A stretch of 64,000 nt of DNA, from positions 3,672,501 to 3,736,500 of the forward strand of contig NZ_CP041091.1 of the NCBI RefSeq assembly GCF_006494815.1, read 5' to 3'. This stretch comes from Nocardioides sambongensis (GTDB taxonomy: Bacteria; Actinomycetota; Actinomycetes; Propionibacteriales; Nocardioidaceae). Made by a program: the position numbers and the translations under genes. Every line of letters begins with the position of its first letter. Position 1 is the stretch's first letter. The notes beneath the pieces are model-generated. The model saw only the letters and a program-made list of their open reading frames with translations. It ran no database searches and was not told where the DNA came from. Shown one piece after another: positions 1,095-61,685 of the stretch.

Positions 1095-1100
1095 TCACCG

Positions 1101-1137
1101 GTGCCGGTAGGTGTCATCAGGTGACACCGACCGGCAC
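1101..1137. repeat. Palindrome A1 (terminator-like, solo copy)
   Basis: A 16-bp stem with one mismatch and a 5-nt loop, starting 7 bases after the crotonase stop. Its 19-bp core (GGTGTCA, 5 nt, TGACACC) is the exact reverse complement of the core of the palindrome at 14986-15030 and shares both 7-bp arms with the one at 16071-16117. There is no T-run, so any terminator role would be of the U-less actinobacterial kind. The shared core shows it is a dispersed repeat and not just a random hairpin. Confidence 0.8.
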
Positions 1138-1164
1138 GACAAGGCGGTCCACGCGGCCATCCTC

Positions 1165-13040: not shown

Positions 13041-14968
13041 ATGCCTGAACAGCCGCTCACCGCCTCCGAAGCCATCGCGGCCATCCAGGGGCACCAGGCG
13101 TGGGCGATCATCCGGCGCTCCACCCGTTCCGGCGACCGGGACACCGTCGGCGTGATCGGCGGCCCCCGCTGGGTGGCCGACTCGATCATGGACATCCCGC
13201 TCGAGCAGGGGGTGCCGGAGCCGGGGCGCACCTGCGACCGGCTGGTCGCCGTACCGTTCCGCCAGATCGGTGAACGCGGCTTCGACGCCCACGACGACGG
13301 CACCCCGCTGGTCGTGGTCGATGTGGCCGAGGAGCACGAGTTCTCCGTCGCCGACGTGGTCGACGCGATCGAGGACACCGGGCTGGAGTTCACCGACCGC
13401 GGCGGCTTCGAGACCAGCGACGAGGACTACGCCGAGGTCGTCGAGGCGATCATCCGCGACGAGATCGGCCAGGGCGAGGGCGCCAACCTGGTGGTCGGGC
13501 GCAACTACCGCGCGGTCGTCGCCGACTGGGACGCCTCGAAGGCGCTGACCGTGTTCCGCCGGTTGCTGGAGCGCGAGCGCGGCGCCTACTGGACGTTCCT
13601 CTTCTACACCGGCGACCGCTACCTGGTCGGCGCCAGCCCGGAGCGCCACGTCTCGGTGCACGGCGGCGACGTCCGGATGAACCCGATCTCCGGCACCTTC
13701 CACCTGCGCGCCCCGGCCGGGGAGACCCGGTCCACCGAGGAGCGGCTGCGCGACTTCCTGCGCGACGAGAAGGAGATCTACGAGCTCTTCATGGTGGTGG
13801 ACGAGGAGCTGAAGATGATGTGCGACATCTGCACCGAGGGTGGCCAGGTGCTCGGTCCGTTCCTCAAGCCGATGACGCACCTGATCCACACCGAGTACCT
13901 GCTGGCCGGCCGCACCACCCGCGACGTGCGCGAGGTGCTGCGCGACACCATGTACGCCGCCACCGTCACCGGCTCCCCGGTGGAGAACGCCTGCCGGCTG
14001 ATCAAGGCCTACGAGCCCGAGGGCCGCGGCTACTACGCCTCGGCGCTGGCGCTCTTCGGCCGGGACGCCGCCGGCGATGCGGTGGTCGACTCGCCGATCG
14101 TGATCCGTACCGCCGACGTCTCCCCGGACGGCGCGCTGAAGGTGACCGCCGGCGCCACCTTGGTGCGCGACTCCGACCCCGCCTACGAGGTCGCCGAGAC
14201 CCACGCCAAGGCCGGGGGATCCTCTCCGCGTTCGGCCTGGTGCCGCCCGCGCCGGTGGTCGAGGGCGCCGCCGGCACGCTCGCCGAGCTGGTCGCCGACG
14301 AGGAGACGCTGATCGCCCTGGCCGCCCGCAACGGCCGGCTCTCCGGGTTCTGGCTCGCCGACCAGGCCGGCACCCCCGCCGACCCCCGCCTGGCCGGCAG
14401 GTCGTGCGTCATCCTGGACGGCGAGGACGACTTCGTGAACATGCTGCGCCACATGCTGGCCCGGATGGGTGTCTCCTCGGCCGTGGTCCGCCACGAGGAG
14501 TACGTCGAGGGCTGCCTGGACGGCTACGACCTGGTCATCATCGGCCCCGGGCCCGGCGACCCCCGGGACGACGCCGACCCGAAGATGGCCAACCTGCGCG
14601 CCGCCGTCGCCTCGCTGCTGGCCGCCGAGCGTCCCTTCCTCGCCGTCTGCCTCGGCCACCAGGCGCTGTGCCACCAGCTCGGCATCCCGCTGGCCTACAA
14701 GGACATCGTCTTCCAGGGCACCCAGGCGTCGGTCTGGCTGGACGGCAGCCCGGAGCGGGTCGGCTTCTACAACACCTTCGTCGGCCGGGTCGGGCCGGAC
14801 GTGGCGCTGCCCGCCGGGGTGAGCGTCGACGCCGACCCGGAGACCGGTGACGTGCACGCGCTGCGCGGGCCGCACTATCGCGGGGTGCAGTTCCATGCCG
14901 AGTCGATCCTCACCGAGCACGGTTTCGCGATCGTGCACGACCTGGTCGCGGGGGTCCTCCTCGACTGA
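13041..14968 (+). CDS. PhzE-like anthranilate/ADIC synthase, fused TrpE-TrpG domains (frameshifted)
   Basis: About 642 residues when one base is restored. Residues 1-390 are a chorismate-utilising TrpE-like domain with RMNPISGTFHLRAPAG, DEKEIYELFMVVDEELKMM and TVTGSPVENACRLI, which look closer to PhzE than to TrpE. The C-terminal part is a glutamine amidotransferase with the nucleophile in AVCLGHQ and an FHAES His-Glu motif. The reading frame breaks at the five-G run 14214-14218: HAKAGG must join ILSAFGLVPPAP. Expected products are 2-amino-2-deoxyisochorismate or anthranilate. No other phenazine genes are visible, so it may serve another aromatic pathway. Confidence 0.78.
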
Positions 14969-14985
14969 GCTTGCTCTGGGCGCCT

Positions 14986-15030
14986 TGCGGTGCTCGTTGG
15001 TGTCACCTGATGACACCAACGGGCACCACA
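14986..15030. repeat. Palindrome A2, left bracket of the DUF559 gene
   Basis: A stem of about 20 bp with one wobble pair and one mismatch around a 5-nt loop (CCTGA), 18 bases after the phzE-like stop. Its core is identical to the reverse complement of A1, and its arm (GGTGCTCGTTGGTGTCA) differs by one base from the arm of A3. It could serve as a terminator for the phzE-like gene. Confidence 0.85.
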
Positions 15031-15108
15031 GCGGGGGACGACCTCTGCCCTCCACAGACGGGCGCCGGGGTGGCGCACGGTGGGGGTCGTTGCGGCGATC
15101 GTGCCGGG

Positions 15109-16065
15109 GTGCCGCGATTCGACCTGAGTGACCCCTACCTGGGCCACCTGCTCCGCTGGGTGCAGGACGGCGTGATCGCCCGCTCTCAGCTCATCGATGC
15201 GGGCGCCGGGGAGAACGACATCCGGCGTCTCCTCCGGCGACGTGACCTCGTGATGGTGCATCCGGGCGTCTACGTCACGCACACCGGTGAGCTCACTCAC
15301 CAGCAGCGCGAGTGGGTGGCGGTGCTCGCGGCTCATCCCGCGGCGCTGTGTGATCGCTCGGCGCTCGCCGAGGTGCTGCCGCGCCGCGGTCGCGTCGTTC
15401 AGGTTGCGGTCGAGCGCGGACGTTCCGTGTCCGTGCCGCGCTGGGCTGCTGTTCACCGGATCTCCCACCTTGCGGACCGGATCGATCCGCGATCCGCGCC
15501 GCCACGCGTGGCGCTCGAGCATGCGCTCCTCGACGTGATGTCGAGCCAGATCAAGGCGGGCGACCTGGCCGGTGCGTTCTCGGACCTGAGCCAGGTGCTC
15601 TTCAGCAGGAGGACGACGGTCGACCGGGTGGTGGCGGCGTTGGACGGCCGCGCCCGCGTGTCTGGCCGCGCCGTGGTCGCAGCGCTCCTCGAGGATGCCC
15701 GGACGGGTGCCTGCTCGGTGCTCGAGCGGGGATACCTGCGTGATGTGGAGCGTGCTCACGGGCTGCCGCGTGGCACTCGTCAGCACGCGAGCGGGGCGAC
15801 CGGGCGTCGTACGGTCCACGATGTCCGGTACGACGACTACGGCACGATCGTCGAACTCGACGGAGCGGCGTTCCACGGCAGTCCGGCGGCACGGGACAGG
15901 GATGCCCGTCGGGATCTCGCCGAGGCAGCCACCCACGACGCGGTGACCCTGCGGATCACCTATGGCCTCGTCTTCGGCGACGCCTGTCGGACGGCCGGCT
16001 GGGTCGCTCGGGTCCTCCAGCGGCGTGGGTGGACCGGCCGCATCCACGCCTGCCCGCGATGCTGA
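15109..16065 (+). CDS. AbiEi-like winged-helix plus DUF559 (PD-(D/E)XK-like) protein
   Basis: 318 residues from GTG 15109. The N-terminal part (ARSQLIDAGAGENDIRRLLR, then VMVHPGVYVT) is the winged-helix of AbiEi-type antitoxin proteins. The C-terminal part resembles DUF559/Vsr-like endonucleases, with HDVRYDDYGTIVELDGAAFH carrying the D-(x)n-ExD core, and a basic helix DRDARRDLAEAATHD. No AbiEii-type nucleotidyltransferase toxin is adjacent. It separates the phzE-like gene from pabA, has less extreme codon bias than its neighbours by eye, and lies between the near-identical palindromes A2 and A3. Nuclease activity is inferred from family resemblance. Confidence 0.75.
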   Translation: MPRFDLSDPYLGHLLRWVQDGVIARSQLIDAGAGENDIRRLLRRRDLVMVHPGVYVTHTGELTHQQREWVAVLAAHPAALCDRSALAEVLPRRGRVVQVAVERGRSVSVPRWAAVHRISHLADRIDPRSAPPRVALEHALLDVMSSQIKAGDLAGAFSDLSQVLFSRRTTVDRVVAALDGRARVSGRAVVAALLEDARTGACSVLERGYLRDVERAHGLPRGTRQHASGATGRRTVHDVRYDDYGTIVELDGAAFHGSPAARDRDARRDLAEAATHDAVTLRITYGLVFGDACRTAGWVARVLQRRGWTGRIHACPRC

Positions 16066-16070
16066 CGCCG

Positions 16071-16117
16071 TTGTGGTGCGCGTTGGTGTCAGTTGGTGAC
16101 ACCAACGCGCACCACAA
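16071..16117. repeat. Palindrome A3, right bracket of the DUF559 gene
   Basis: A perfect 21-bp stem with a 5-nt loop (GTTGG), 6 bases after the DUF559 gene stop. Seventeen bases of the arm match A2 with one difference. Such a long perfect stem exceeds what a terminator needs. Downstream, pabA begins at 16150. Confidence 0.88.
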
Positions 16118-16149
16118 GCGCAGAACTGCTGCTGCGGGAGAATGGGCGG

Positions 16150-16736
16150 GTGCGCACTCCCGACGTGGTGGTCGTCGACCACCACGACTCCTACACCGGC
16201 AACCTGGTGCACCTGATCGCCGGTGTCACCGGGGTGCTGCCGCGGGTGGTGCAGCACGACGAGACCGAGCCCGACGACGTGCTGCGCCACGAGTTCGTGG
16301 TGCTCTCGCCCGGCCCCGGCCACCCGCGGACCCGCGGGACTTCGCGGTCGGTCGCGAGGTGCTGCTCTCGGCCCGCCGGCCGGTGCTCGGGGTCTGCCTG
16401 GGGATGCAGGGGATGGTCACCGGCTACGGCGGCGTGGTCGACCGAGTGCCGCCCGGGCACGGCGTCGCGGCCCGGATCACGCACGACGGGTCCGGGCTGT
16501 TCACCGGGCTGCCGCAGGAGTTCCGGGCCGTCCGCTACCACTCGCTGGCGGTGCTCGACCTGCCCGACGGGATGCGGGCCACCGCGCTGGACGCGCTGAC
16601 CGGCGTCACGATGGGGATCGTGCACACCGACCTGCCACTCGCCGGCGTGCAGTTCCACCCCGAGTCGATCCTCTCCGAGCACGGGGCCGCGCTGGTCACC
16701 AACTTCCTCACCGGAGCCGGGGTGGACGCGTGGTGA
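16150..16736 (+). CDS. pabA: Aminodeoxychorismate synthase glutaminase component (frameshifted)
   Basis: About 195 residues, the usual PabA/TrpG length. The N-terminus VVVVDHHDSYTGNLVHLIAG and the SPGPGHP motif are in one frame; DPRDFAVGREVL, the nucleophile motif GVCLGMQGM, and GVQFHPESILSEHG are in the next. One base is missing at the CCC run 16323-16325. The enzyme releases ammonia from glutamine for aminodeoxychorismate synthesis (folate). Its stop overlaps the pabB GTG at 16733, so the pair is coupled. A TrpG role is possible, but the following gene is PabB-like. Confidence 0.82.
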
Positions 16737-18015
16737 CCCCCGGCGATCCCGCGGAGGCGTTCGCCCGTGTCCAGGCCGAGCACGAACGCTGCTTCTGGCT
16801 CGACGGCGGCGGCGCCCGCGACTGGTCCAGCGGCCGGTCGGTGCTCGGGTGGCTCGACGCCGACGACGTGTCGCTCAGCTATCACGCGGCGCGTCGCGAG
16901 GTCACCCGCCACGTTGGCGGACGGGCCGAGGTCGTCGGGGACGACCCGTTCGTCGTACTGGAGACGGAGTTGGCGGCCGGCGGACCGACGGACCAGTGGT
17001 TCGGCTACTTCGGGTACGCCGCCCGCCCCGACCTCCCCGCGGCGCCGGACCCGCACCTGCCCGACGCGGTGTGGATGCGGCCGGGGCACCTGCGGACGTT
17101 CGAGCGGCCGGGGGACACGGCGCTCGACCCGCTCACCCGGCTCGCCCCGCTCCCGCCTCGGGCCTCCGACCCTACCCTCCCGTCGCCTACCTCGATGCTT
17201 TCGCCGAGGTCCAGGAGCACCTGCACGCCGGCGACTCCTACGAGGTCAACCTGACCCACCGGCTGGAGCGGACCAGCCCGCTCGGCCCCGGCGAGGTCTA
17301 CCAGCGGCTGCGGGCGCTCAACCCGGCGCCGTACGCGGGCTTCCTGCAGCACGACGTGGCCGGGGCGCGGGCGTGGCTGCTCAGCTCCAGCCCCGAGCGC
17401 TATGCGCTGCTCACCGACGACCGCACGCTGGAGGCGAAGCCGATCAAGGGCACCACGCCGCGCGACCCGGCCCCGGCCGCGGACGAGGCGGCACGGGACC
17501 GGCTCCGCACCGACGAGAAGTTCACGGCGGAGAACCTGATGATCGTCGACCTGCTCCGCAACGACCTGGCCGGCGTGTGCGAGGTCGGCAGCGTCGAGGT
17601 GCCGCACCTGATGGAGGTGGAGTCCTACGCGTCGGTGCACCAGCTGGTCTCCACGGTCCGCGGTCGGCTGCGCCCCGACGTGGGCACGGTCGCGGCGCTG
17701 CGCTCGCTCTTCCCGGCCGGGTCGATGACCGGCGCACCCAAGCTGCGCACGATGCAGATCATCGACGCCGTCGAGGCCACCCCGCGGGGCGTCTACGCCG
17801 GTGCGTTCGGATGGGTGGCCGGCGATGGCCGGGCGGATCTCGGCGTGGTGATCCGGAGCCTGACCACCGCCGGCGACGGCACCTACCGGATCGGCACCGG
17901 CGGCGGGATCACCGTCGCCAGCGCCGCCGCGGAGGAGTACGCCGAGACCCGCTGGAAGGCCGAGCGGGTGCTGGCCGCGCTCGACGGACCCGGGACGCTC
18001 AGCGCAGGTCGGTGA
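16733..18015 (+). CDS. pabB: Aminodeoxychorismate synthase component I (frameshifted)
   Basis: About 427 residues. The N-terminal half has WFGYFGYAARPDLP; the catalytic half has HAGDSYEVNLTHRLE, LSSSPERY, the PabB-type PIKGTTPRD (TrpE has PIAGTRPRG), KFTAENLMIVDLLRNDLAGV and GSMTGAPKLRTMQIID. It turns chorismate plus ammonia into 4-amino-4-deoxychorismate. The frame breaks near 17170 (CCC run), where RASD must continue as PYPPVAYLDAFAEVQ. The start GTG overlaps the pabA stop. The 3' end overlaps the convergent reductase gene by 17 bases. Confidence 0.85.
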
Positions 18016-25434: not shown

Positions 25435-25544
25435 GAGTTGGGGGTTCGGTCCCCTCGAATAATGACCTCGGGCCCCTCGAGTCGTGAGTTCGGGCCCCGG
25501 AAAAGGCCCGAACCCCCGACTCGAGGGGCCCGAAAGCCCAACTC
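25435..25544. repeat. Large nested palindrome C between the PNPOx-fold gene and acs
   Basis: Inner stem: 28 bp with 2 mismatches (25469-25496 paired with 25505-25532) around an 8-nt loop. Outer arms GAGTTGGG (25435-25442) and CCCAACTC (25537-25544) close the structure. A further partial copy of the inner arm (GGGGGTTCGG, then CCCCTCGA) lies at 25440-25458. It follows the acs stop on the minus strand by 22 bases, so it may terminate acs, but it is far larger than a terminator needs to be. Confidence 0.75.
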
Positions 25545-40105: not shown

Positions 40106-40164
40106 GCGCCCCATTCGGATTGGTCGGGAATTGCCCCAGATCTCGACCAATCCGAATGGGGCGC
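40106..40164. terminator. Perfect 21-bp hairpin between narK and gdhA
   Basis: GCGCCCCATTCGGATTGGTCG at 40106-40126 is exactly complementary to 40144-40164, with a 17-nt loop. It lies between convergent narK and gdhA stops and probably terminates both. The stem is much longer than typical. Confidence 0.78.
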
Positions 40165-61637: not shown

Positions 61638-61685
61638 GAAACCCGCACGACACGCCGGTGCGCCTCGGCGTGTCGCGCGGGTTTC
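61638..61685. terminator. 20-bp hairpin downstream of the GH65 gene
   Basis: GAAACCCGC arm: a 20-bp stem with one mismatch around an 8-nt loop. A further GAAACCCGCA half-copy follows at 61700. It begins 26 bases after the GH65 stop on the minus strand. Confidence 0.72.

Follow-up and report, generated by a model that had tools for sequence, protein, structure and literature searches.

In the accessible portions of two reports, the REPtron is described as a set of palindromes around a Y1 transposase gene, with solitary copies of the palindrome near gene 3' ends (PMC3733652, PMC6006769). Its enzyme (RAYT or TnpA-REP) is of the HUH-Y1 type, and the available parts of this literature tie REP-type palindromes to that one enzyme class, the Y1 transposases. 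Two other kinds of protein enter the comparison. The AbiEi antitoxin of type IV toxin-antitoxin systems is reported, in the accessible part of its description, to bind a pair of inverted repeats, each 23 bp long, with 3 bp between them (PMC7319586), and the EDxHD enzyme I-Bth0305I is reported, in a source likewise available in part, to form a dimer on a target almost 60 bp long (PMC3943268).

The locus considered here belongs to a window of 64,000 nucleotides, the whole stretch of DNA that was analysed, from Nocardioides sambongensis (contig NZ_CP041091.1, positions 3,672,501 to 3,736,500), and contains a gene for a predicted nuclease between two palindromes. As in the REPtron, a single enzyme gene has its own palindromes on both sides, solitary palindromes are dispersed near gene 3' ends, and there are several palindrome types with cognate genes. 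In contrast to the REPtron, the palindromes of this family are longer (about 35-50 bp) and their copies far fewer, the six aligned 47-mers of the window's genome (the only copies examined for it) have no GTAG/CGTC tag at their ends, and the enzyme is a predicted AbiEi fold joined to a Vsr/EDxHD nuclease and not a Y1/HUH transposase. Because the enzyme class differs, the family is not a REPtron; thus the resemblance to REP/RAYT elements suggested by the original prediction holds as an analogy in flanking palindromes and solos and fails as membership, the enzyme being neither HUH nor Y1.

Compared with Vsr and the EDxHD homing endonucleases such as I-Bth0305I, the family would add an AbiEi-type DNA-binding half, and its gene is bracketed by full palindromes, whereas an EDxHD homing endonuclease splits its own target; like the genes of EDxHD homing endonucleases, the family gene is present or absent at otherwise conserved sites (the window site and a site beside miaB). 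With AbiEi and Rv2827c the window protein has the predicted AbiEi fold in common, but the window gene has no adjoining toxin gene, carries a predicted nuclease domain and has a matched second repeat behind it. No such element is described in openly licensed PubMed Central papers, among the matches listed and with most subscription literature outside this scope, nor is a palindrome-bracketed element described there, again among the matches listed, for DUF559 / MTES_1575 putative endonucleases.

The element in the window and its protein

The nuclease gene occupies positions 15109..16065 of the plus strand (318 aa, GTG start, stop codon ending at 16065). The upstream palindrome A2 has 20-nt arms at 14986-15005 and 15011-15030, which are 90% complementary around a 5-nt loop, and the downstream palindrome A3 has 21-nt arms at 16071-16091 and 16097-16117, which are 100% complementary, also around a 5-nt loop. 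These coordinates, arms and loops confirm that the predicted nuclease gene lies between near-identical palindromes of about 45 bp. As had been noted, a single position distinguishes the two 17-base left arms, GGTGC[T/G]CGTTGGTGTCA, and both palindromes carry GGTGTCA, 5 nt, TGACACC. From A2 to the gene start there are 78 bases, with the motif TCCACAG at 15051..15057 of the plus strand in between, and from the stop codon to A3 there are 5 bases. A2 is followed by GCGGG and A3 by GCGCAG, and in contrast to an intrinsic terminator neither hairpin has a T-run behind it.

On the upstream side the gene is preceded by a phzE-like gene (13041..14968, plus strand; ORFs 13041-14312 and 13820-14968, frame changing near 14204) with chorismate-binding PF00425 and glutamine amidotransferase PF00117 domains, and on the downstream side it is followed by a pabA-like gene (16150..16736, plus strand; PF00117 in both pieces, frame changing near 16330). 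The domain matches agree with the proposal that the nuclease gene separates phzE-like from pabA. These chorismate-binding/GATase and GATase genes are the direct neighbours, and an AbiEii toxin gene adjoining the window gene is absent. No target-site duplication was evident by eye, in a non-systematic look, at the window or miaB junctions. A solo palindrome of the A2/A3 family, A1, was found by core search and covariance model at 1096..1142 (core 1110-1128), 14 kb from the nuclease gene and 4 nt off a gene 3' end; within 1.5 kb of it (to the left, the 1.1 kb up to the window edge) there is no DUF559 match.

A1, A2 and A3 are three mismatch-free copies of the core GGTGTCAN5TGACACC, while shuffled windows with up to 2 mismatches tolerated gave a mean of 0.24 cores, and 1 of 100 shuffles attained three. 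In the 4.43-Mb genome from which the window comes there are 7 exact cores with 3-8-nt loops, and the reversed control pattern gave 0; a chance origin of the palindromes is rejected on the shuffles and this control. A known Rfam family was also rejected, since the palindromes gave merely sub-threshold, unrelated matches. Six of the 7 copies have longer GTGC...GCAC arms (3 or fewer mismatches tolerated), and among these six both sides are changed at 9 of 21 stem pairs, which 0 of 500 shuffles attain, with pairing retained in 90.5% of cells.

In Pfam the window protein gave sub-threshold matches to AbiEi_4 (17.5 bits, cut-off 25) and MTES_1575 (14.1, cut-off 38.2). The sole Foldseek match of its predicted structure at E <= 0.001 was AbiEi, and the nuclease half (Vsr/EDxHD, DUF559-like) came from a VIA-align comparison of the predicted structure only, with a middling Z; a sequence search of solved structures gave no match. 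The structural model supports an AbiEi-antitoxin-like half joined to a Vsr/EDxHD nuclease half. Beyond the original prediction of a PD-(D/E)XK-type protein in the place of a transposase, the protein looks like a fusion of an AbiEi fold with a Vsr/EDxHD part. D238, D251 and H256 are conserved residues. In the PADLOC defence library a single AbiEi model recognises 13 of 17 family members. In the protein search 2204 proteins were matched at E <= 1e-10 (7993 scored), and among the matches listed (the best 120 of 2204) the names were "type IV toxin-antitoxin system AbiEi family antitoxin domain-containing protein", very-short-patch-repair endonuclease and hypothetical protein. With 0 matches of the window protein in plasmid records and 1 in phage records a mainly plasmid- or phage-borne gene is rejected, and therefore no vehicle is seen.

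A gene family with matched flanking repeats

Homologues are found with a 3-member profile (E <= 1e-15) in 85 of 98 genus genomes, often several in each; when the order was searched with a 17-member profile (E <= 1e-20), 85 of 117 genomes were positive, covering 15 of 17 genera. The genus set consisted of 110 loci, that is, the first 30 and 80 chosen down a longer match list from which fragments and some short-contig matches were skipped; 108 of them were usable (L116 and L213, both truncated, were left out; the window gene itself is outside the 108), as were 52 of 54 loci from other genera and families (without L277 and L284, also truncated).

When a matched pair was defined by an upstream-versus-downstream local alignment score above 40, a cut-off of the analysts' own choice, matched repeats were found at 67 of the 108 genus loci, at 0/108 far flanks, in 11/640 comparisons of an upstream flank with the downstream flank of another locus, and at 1/138 other genes of the same loci, the window and L084. 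Plain terminators are rejected on the far flanks and the other genes. Outside the genus a matched pair is present at 32 of 52 loci (17/20 in family f2, 5/6 in f4, 9/22 in f3 and 1/4 in other genera of f1), with 0 in far flanks. Without a matched pair at this cut-off remained 41/108 genus loci, among them L104, the second family gene of the window's genome, and 20/52 other loci (13/22 in f3). Many of the matched repeats are imperfect palindromes; strong palindromes (analysts' score of 13 or more) stand upstream at 34, downstream at 50 and on one side or both at 64 of the 108 loci, and in none of the far windows. Among the 67 pairs the median end point of the upstream repeat is -87 relative to the start codon, the downstream repeat starts at a median of -6 relative to the stop codon, and the two align better as direct repeats in 44, as inverted repeats in 19 and equally in 4. 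Judged from the sequences compared, the family is a design that recurs in the order with palindromes differing from element to element. A genome-contig search with the window protein gave 0 related loci, and one with the L135 protein gave one locus, in Nocardioides sp. Root682, with palindromes on both sides.

Besides the repeats, TCCACAG occurs between -150 and +20 of the start, mostly between -110 and -50, at 98 of the 108 loci in a single orientation, and in 0/108 far controls; its median position is 7.5 nt behind the upstream repeat (62 elements). In the other groups it is present at 16/22 loci of f3, 5/6 of f4, 7/20 of f2 and 1/4 of other f1 genera. The pattern TTNTCCACA, which resembles a DnaA box, is fitted by 40/108 genus loci.

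The two repeats of an element turn over together. In 65 orthologous-site pairs of loci with a matched pair, within-element repeat identity was 0.84 and identity of the same side between species 0.44 (Wilcoxon p 1.5e-11, pairs not independent), the within-element value being the higher one in 59 of 65. Among pairs without flank homology, repeats were alike (score over 45) in 10/20 when proteins were more than 70% identical, in 6% at 60-70% and in 0.3% at 40-50% protein identity. Two elements of one genome (L163 and L164 in G113) have 80.6% identical proteins, no flank homology and related palindromes. Repeat similarity gave a partial r of 0.10 with the wHTH (2/500 permutations as high) and of 0.09 with the nuclease part (7/500), and no correlation with residues 61-198 (257/500), so that palindrome similarity appears to track, weakly, the wHTH and nuclease domains.

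Empty, single-palindrome and filled sites

The phzE-like protein was matched in 57 of 59 genus genomes (E <= 1e-60), and the window site was examined in the loci of 29 relatives, of 56 matching besides the window's own. In the stretches read the nuclease gene is present at this site in 0/29, and a core palindrome behind the phzE-like gene is also found in 0/29; one locus (L049) has a different palindrome there. The pabA gene follows the phzE-like gene within 100 nt in 17/29 and within 1 kb in 24/29 and was not found in 5/29, and in the nearest of these relatives (85% identity) the spacer is 32 nt. Because they are absent from the 29 relatives read there, the gene and its palindromes look like additions in the lineage of the window. 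The alignment proposed originally for finding an empty site has thus given a gene-free site in 29/29, and the one-palindrome state was found elsewhere, at the miaB site of genome G021.

A flank-homology cluster that adjoins miaB comprises 17 of the 108 loci. Three states of this site exist across species: empty, one palindrome, and palindrome-gene-palindrome in either orientation. Among 13 filled loci compared the gene points one way in 6 and the other way in 7. In G030 the stop codons are 26 nt apart and the site is palindrome-free, and in G021 a lone palindrome stands between miaB and the same convergent gene with no family gene; judged by eye, it belongs to the type that flanks the gene at the miaB site in G108 and G114. 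Of 50 miaB loci read (30 + 20) the family gene is present in 15 and absent in 35; a single element-type palindrome was met among the latter only in G021, and of the others several carry other inverted repeats or lack them, and in many the next gene downstream is a different one. In the rearranged locus of G098 (L345, G098:C1:1160500-1179500) 13.6 kb of other DNA separate the two flanks; each flank has one cognate palindrome, and no family gene lies between them. In a tree of 106 proteins (two of the 108 were left out by length) the label "miaB site" requires 5 changes versus 16.1 in shuffles, at least 2 of them on well-supported branches; the gene at this site is therefore mostly inherited, yet has come or gone several times. 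As a separate observation, the miaB-site elements L185, L188, L147 and L146 have an additional outer palindrome on each side, in 73-84 bp direct or inverted repeats.

Solo palindromes were traced with a covariance model built from the six long-armed copies of the window's genome and run on 59 genus genomes (E <= 1e-3, E-values rough). It was positive in 22 of 59, and some of the weaker matches (E up to 1e-3) may be chance. As to the proposed check for DUF559-type genes beside copies of the core, the best-hit locus has one within 1.5 kb in 6 of the 22 positive genomes, including the window's own, the source of the model. With the matched pairs at 67 of the 108 loci, this associates the palindromes with such genes, and both of the checks proposed originally favour the original reading. 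The gene is accordingly not found everywhere at the window locus, nor do the palindromes behave as plain terminators without a link to DUF559-type genes, the two outcomes that had been named as contrary to the original idea. Copy numbers are low, from 1 to 17 sites per genome. The window's genome has 4 long-armed solo palindromes. In G079 there are 17 model sites, 2 of which bracket a family gene (L084) at a locus unlike that of the window; the other 15 have no family gene in the stretches read, and 8 of these form pairs 45-103 bp apart, which look like REP dimers or miniature elements. At L085, L086, L087 and L088 of this genome two palindrome types are paired (GGTGCGCT... and GGGTGATC...) at these distances of 45-103 bp.

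The palindrome of the G110 element, searched in 98 genomes with 3 mismatches, gave 15 sites in 7 genomes, with 0 for the reversed control. Three sites are in elements, and 12 are without a family gene within 1.5 kb and without TCCACAG within 100 nt. The 12 solos represent 8 places, because L320, L322 and L323 are one place, L324 and L328 another, and L321 and L325 are the two ends of the G098 locus; there would be 7 if L319 and L329, with a common flank stretch, are one. When these 12 are taken with five solos of the window's genome, 14 of the 17 are no more than 51 nt away from the 3' end of a gene, as placed by a crude gene caller. Some solos are common to several species at the same site, and there are lineage-specific solo copies; the solos of the window's genome and of G021 have only the core in common. 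One orthologous solo place was traced in 16 genomes, of which 15 matched and seven kept both flanks or the right flank; the remaining eight, with a left flank match only, are uninformative. In G110, G030 and G017 this place has the G110-type palindrome, and in G105 a palindrome whose arms are those of the element in G105 itself. G098 and G007 carry different palindromes there, next to an inserted gene, and G117 carries another inverted repeat.

Proposed mechanism and rival explanations

The bracketing of the predicted nuclease gene in the same manner in about a hundred relatives of the order, each with its own palindrome, suggests a selfish or mobile DNA element of a kind not described so far, and the unit of palindrome, TCCACAG, nuclease gene and palindrome is probably a small element of this sort. 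More tentatively, with somewhat less than an even chance, it can be considered that these elements form an order-wide undescribed class, in which a fusion of AbiEi and Vsr/EDxHD recognises its own palindrome as a dimer and copies itself into palindrome sites, while repair drives all cognate palindromes to change together; such a class would be REPtron-like, a second invention with a restriction-type nuclease and no Y1 transposase. In detail, the AbiEi-type half would bind a half-site of about 21 bp, two protein molecules would be placed on one palindrome of about 47 bp, and the Vsr/EDxHD-type half would nick or cut there. Repair would then copy from another palindrome or from palindrome-gene-palindrome on the same or an incoming chromosome, which may spread the gene into palindrome sites in a homing-like manner and may keep cognate palindromes alike despite their quick evolution; recombination between the two repeats would remove the gene and leave one palindrome. 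By analogy with the AbiEi and I-Bth0305I targets, a dimer of the fusion would fit onto a 47-bp palindrome that consists of two 21-bp halves around a 5-bp centre. Homing into palindromes leaves the palindrome-free empty sites unexplained; the simplest guess for the arrival of palindromes there is a REP-like transposition to the 3' ends of genes. Also weighing against the proposed element are the 41/108 and 20/52 loci without a matched pair, the many imperfect palindromes, the mostly inherited gene at the miaB site with its single one-palindrome case, the solos common to several species, the low copy numbers, the weak relation of palindrome similarity to protein domains and the lack of a visible vehicle.

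It is also conceivable, though unlikely, that the palindromes are regulatory and the gene immobile, the upstream copy being the operator of AbiEi-type autoregulation and the downstream and solo copies being terminators or other regulatory sites. AbiEi and Rv2827c are indeed described, in the accessible part of one report, as binding inverted repeats in their own promoters (PMC7319586), and the median end of the upstream repeat at -87, the TCCACAG a median of 7.5 nt later and the proximity of 14 of 17 solos to gene 3' ends (within 51 nt, by the crude gene caller) would suit such a role. But an operator needs no near-identical copy behind the stop codon and no turnover in step with it, a terminator has no need to match an operator and A2 and A3 lack a T-run, and the gene and palindromes are present or absent at orthologous sites. 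That the palindromes are ordinary intrinsic terminators, alike by happenstance, can hardly be believed: A2 and A3 both lie shortly behind stop codons, but matched pairs are found in 0/108 far flanks and at 1/138 other genes, and the likeness is confined within the element.

There is little probability that the repeats are REP-like and spread by an unrelated enzyme, for example a Y1/RAYT-type transposase, with the nuclease gene as passenger or parasite. The location of REPs near the 3' ends of convergent genes, as given in the accessible part of PMC3733652, and the likeness of the paired palindromes of G079 to REP dimers speak for it; a passenger should not track the palindrome type, while in several genera and families many nuclease genes have a palindrome type of their own. 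A nuclease of defence or self-recognition, which would cut foreign DNA and be sequestered or marked by host palindromes, is suggested by the PADLOC AbiEi matches in 13/17 members and by same-site proteins down to 44% identical, but it appears quite improbable, as the PADLOC match is confined to the AbiEi half, the genes directly beside the window gene are metabolic and the flanking position of both palindromes is left unexplained.

If the proposal of a self-copying fusion is true, dispersed palindromes would have been paired with an enzyme of their own a second time, independently of the REPs, and the palindromes that recur at the 3' ends of genes in these genomes would be accounted for. The family is present in 15/17 genera searched, and its members have until now been annotated as AbiEi family antitoxin domain-containing or hypothetical protein. 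It offers dozens of natural enzyme-site pairs and with them a testable case of coevolution between nuclease and recognition site.

Apart from the element, the window contains further long inverted repeats at 25468-25533, 40106-40164 and 61638-61685, with arms of 29, 24 and 20 nt that are 93-96% complementary and by eye unrelated in sequence to A2/A3. At 13041-18015 phzE-like, pabA-like and pabB-like genes stand in a row, each apparently with one frame change (near 14204, 16330 and 17170, approximate positions judged by eye from the ORFs), and these three changes look like single-base assembly errors, decay being less likely.
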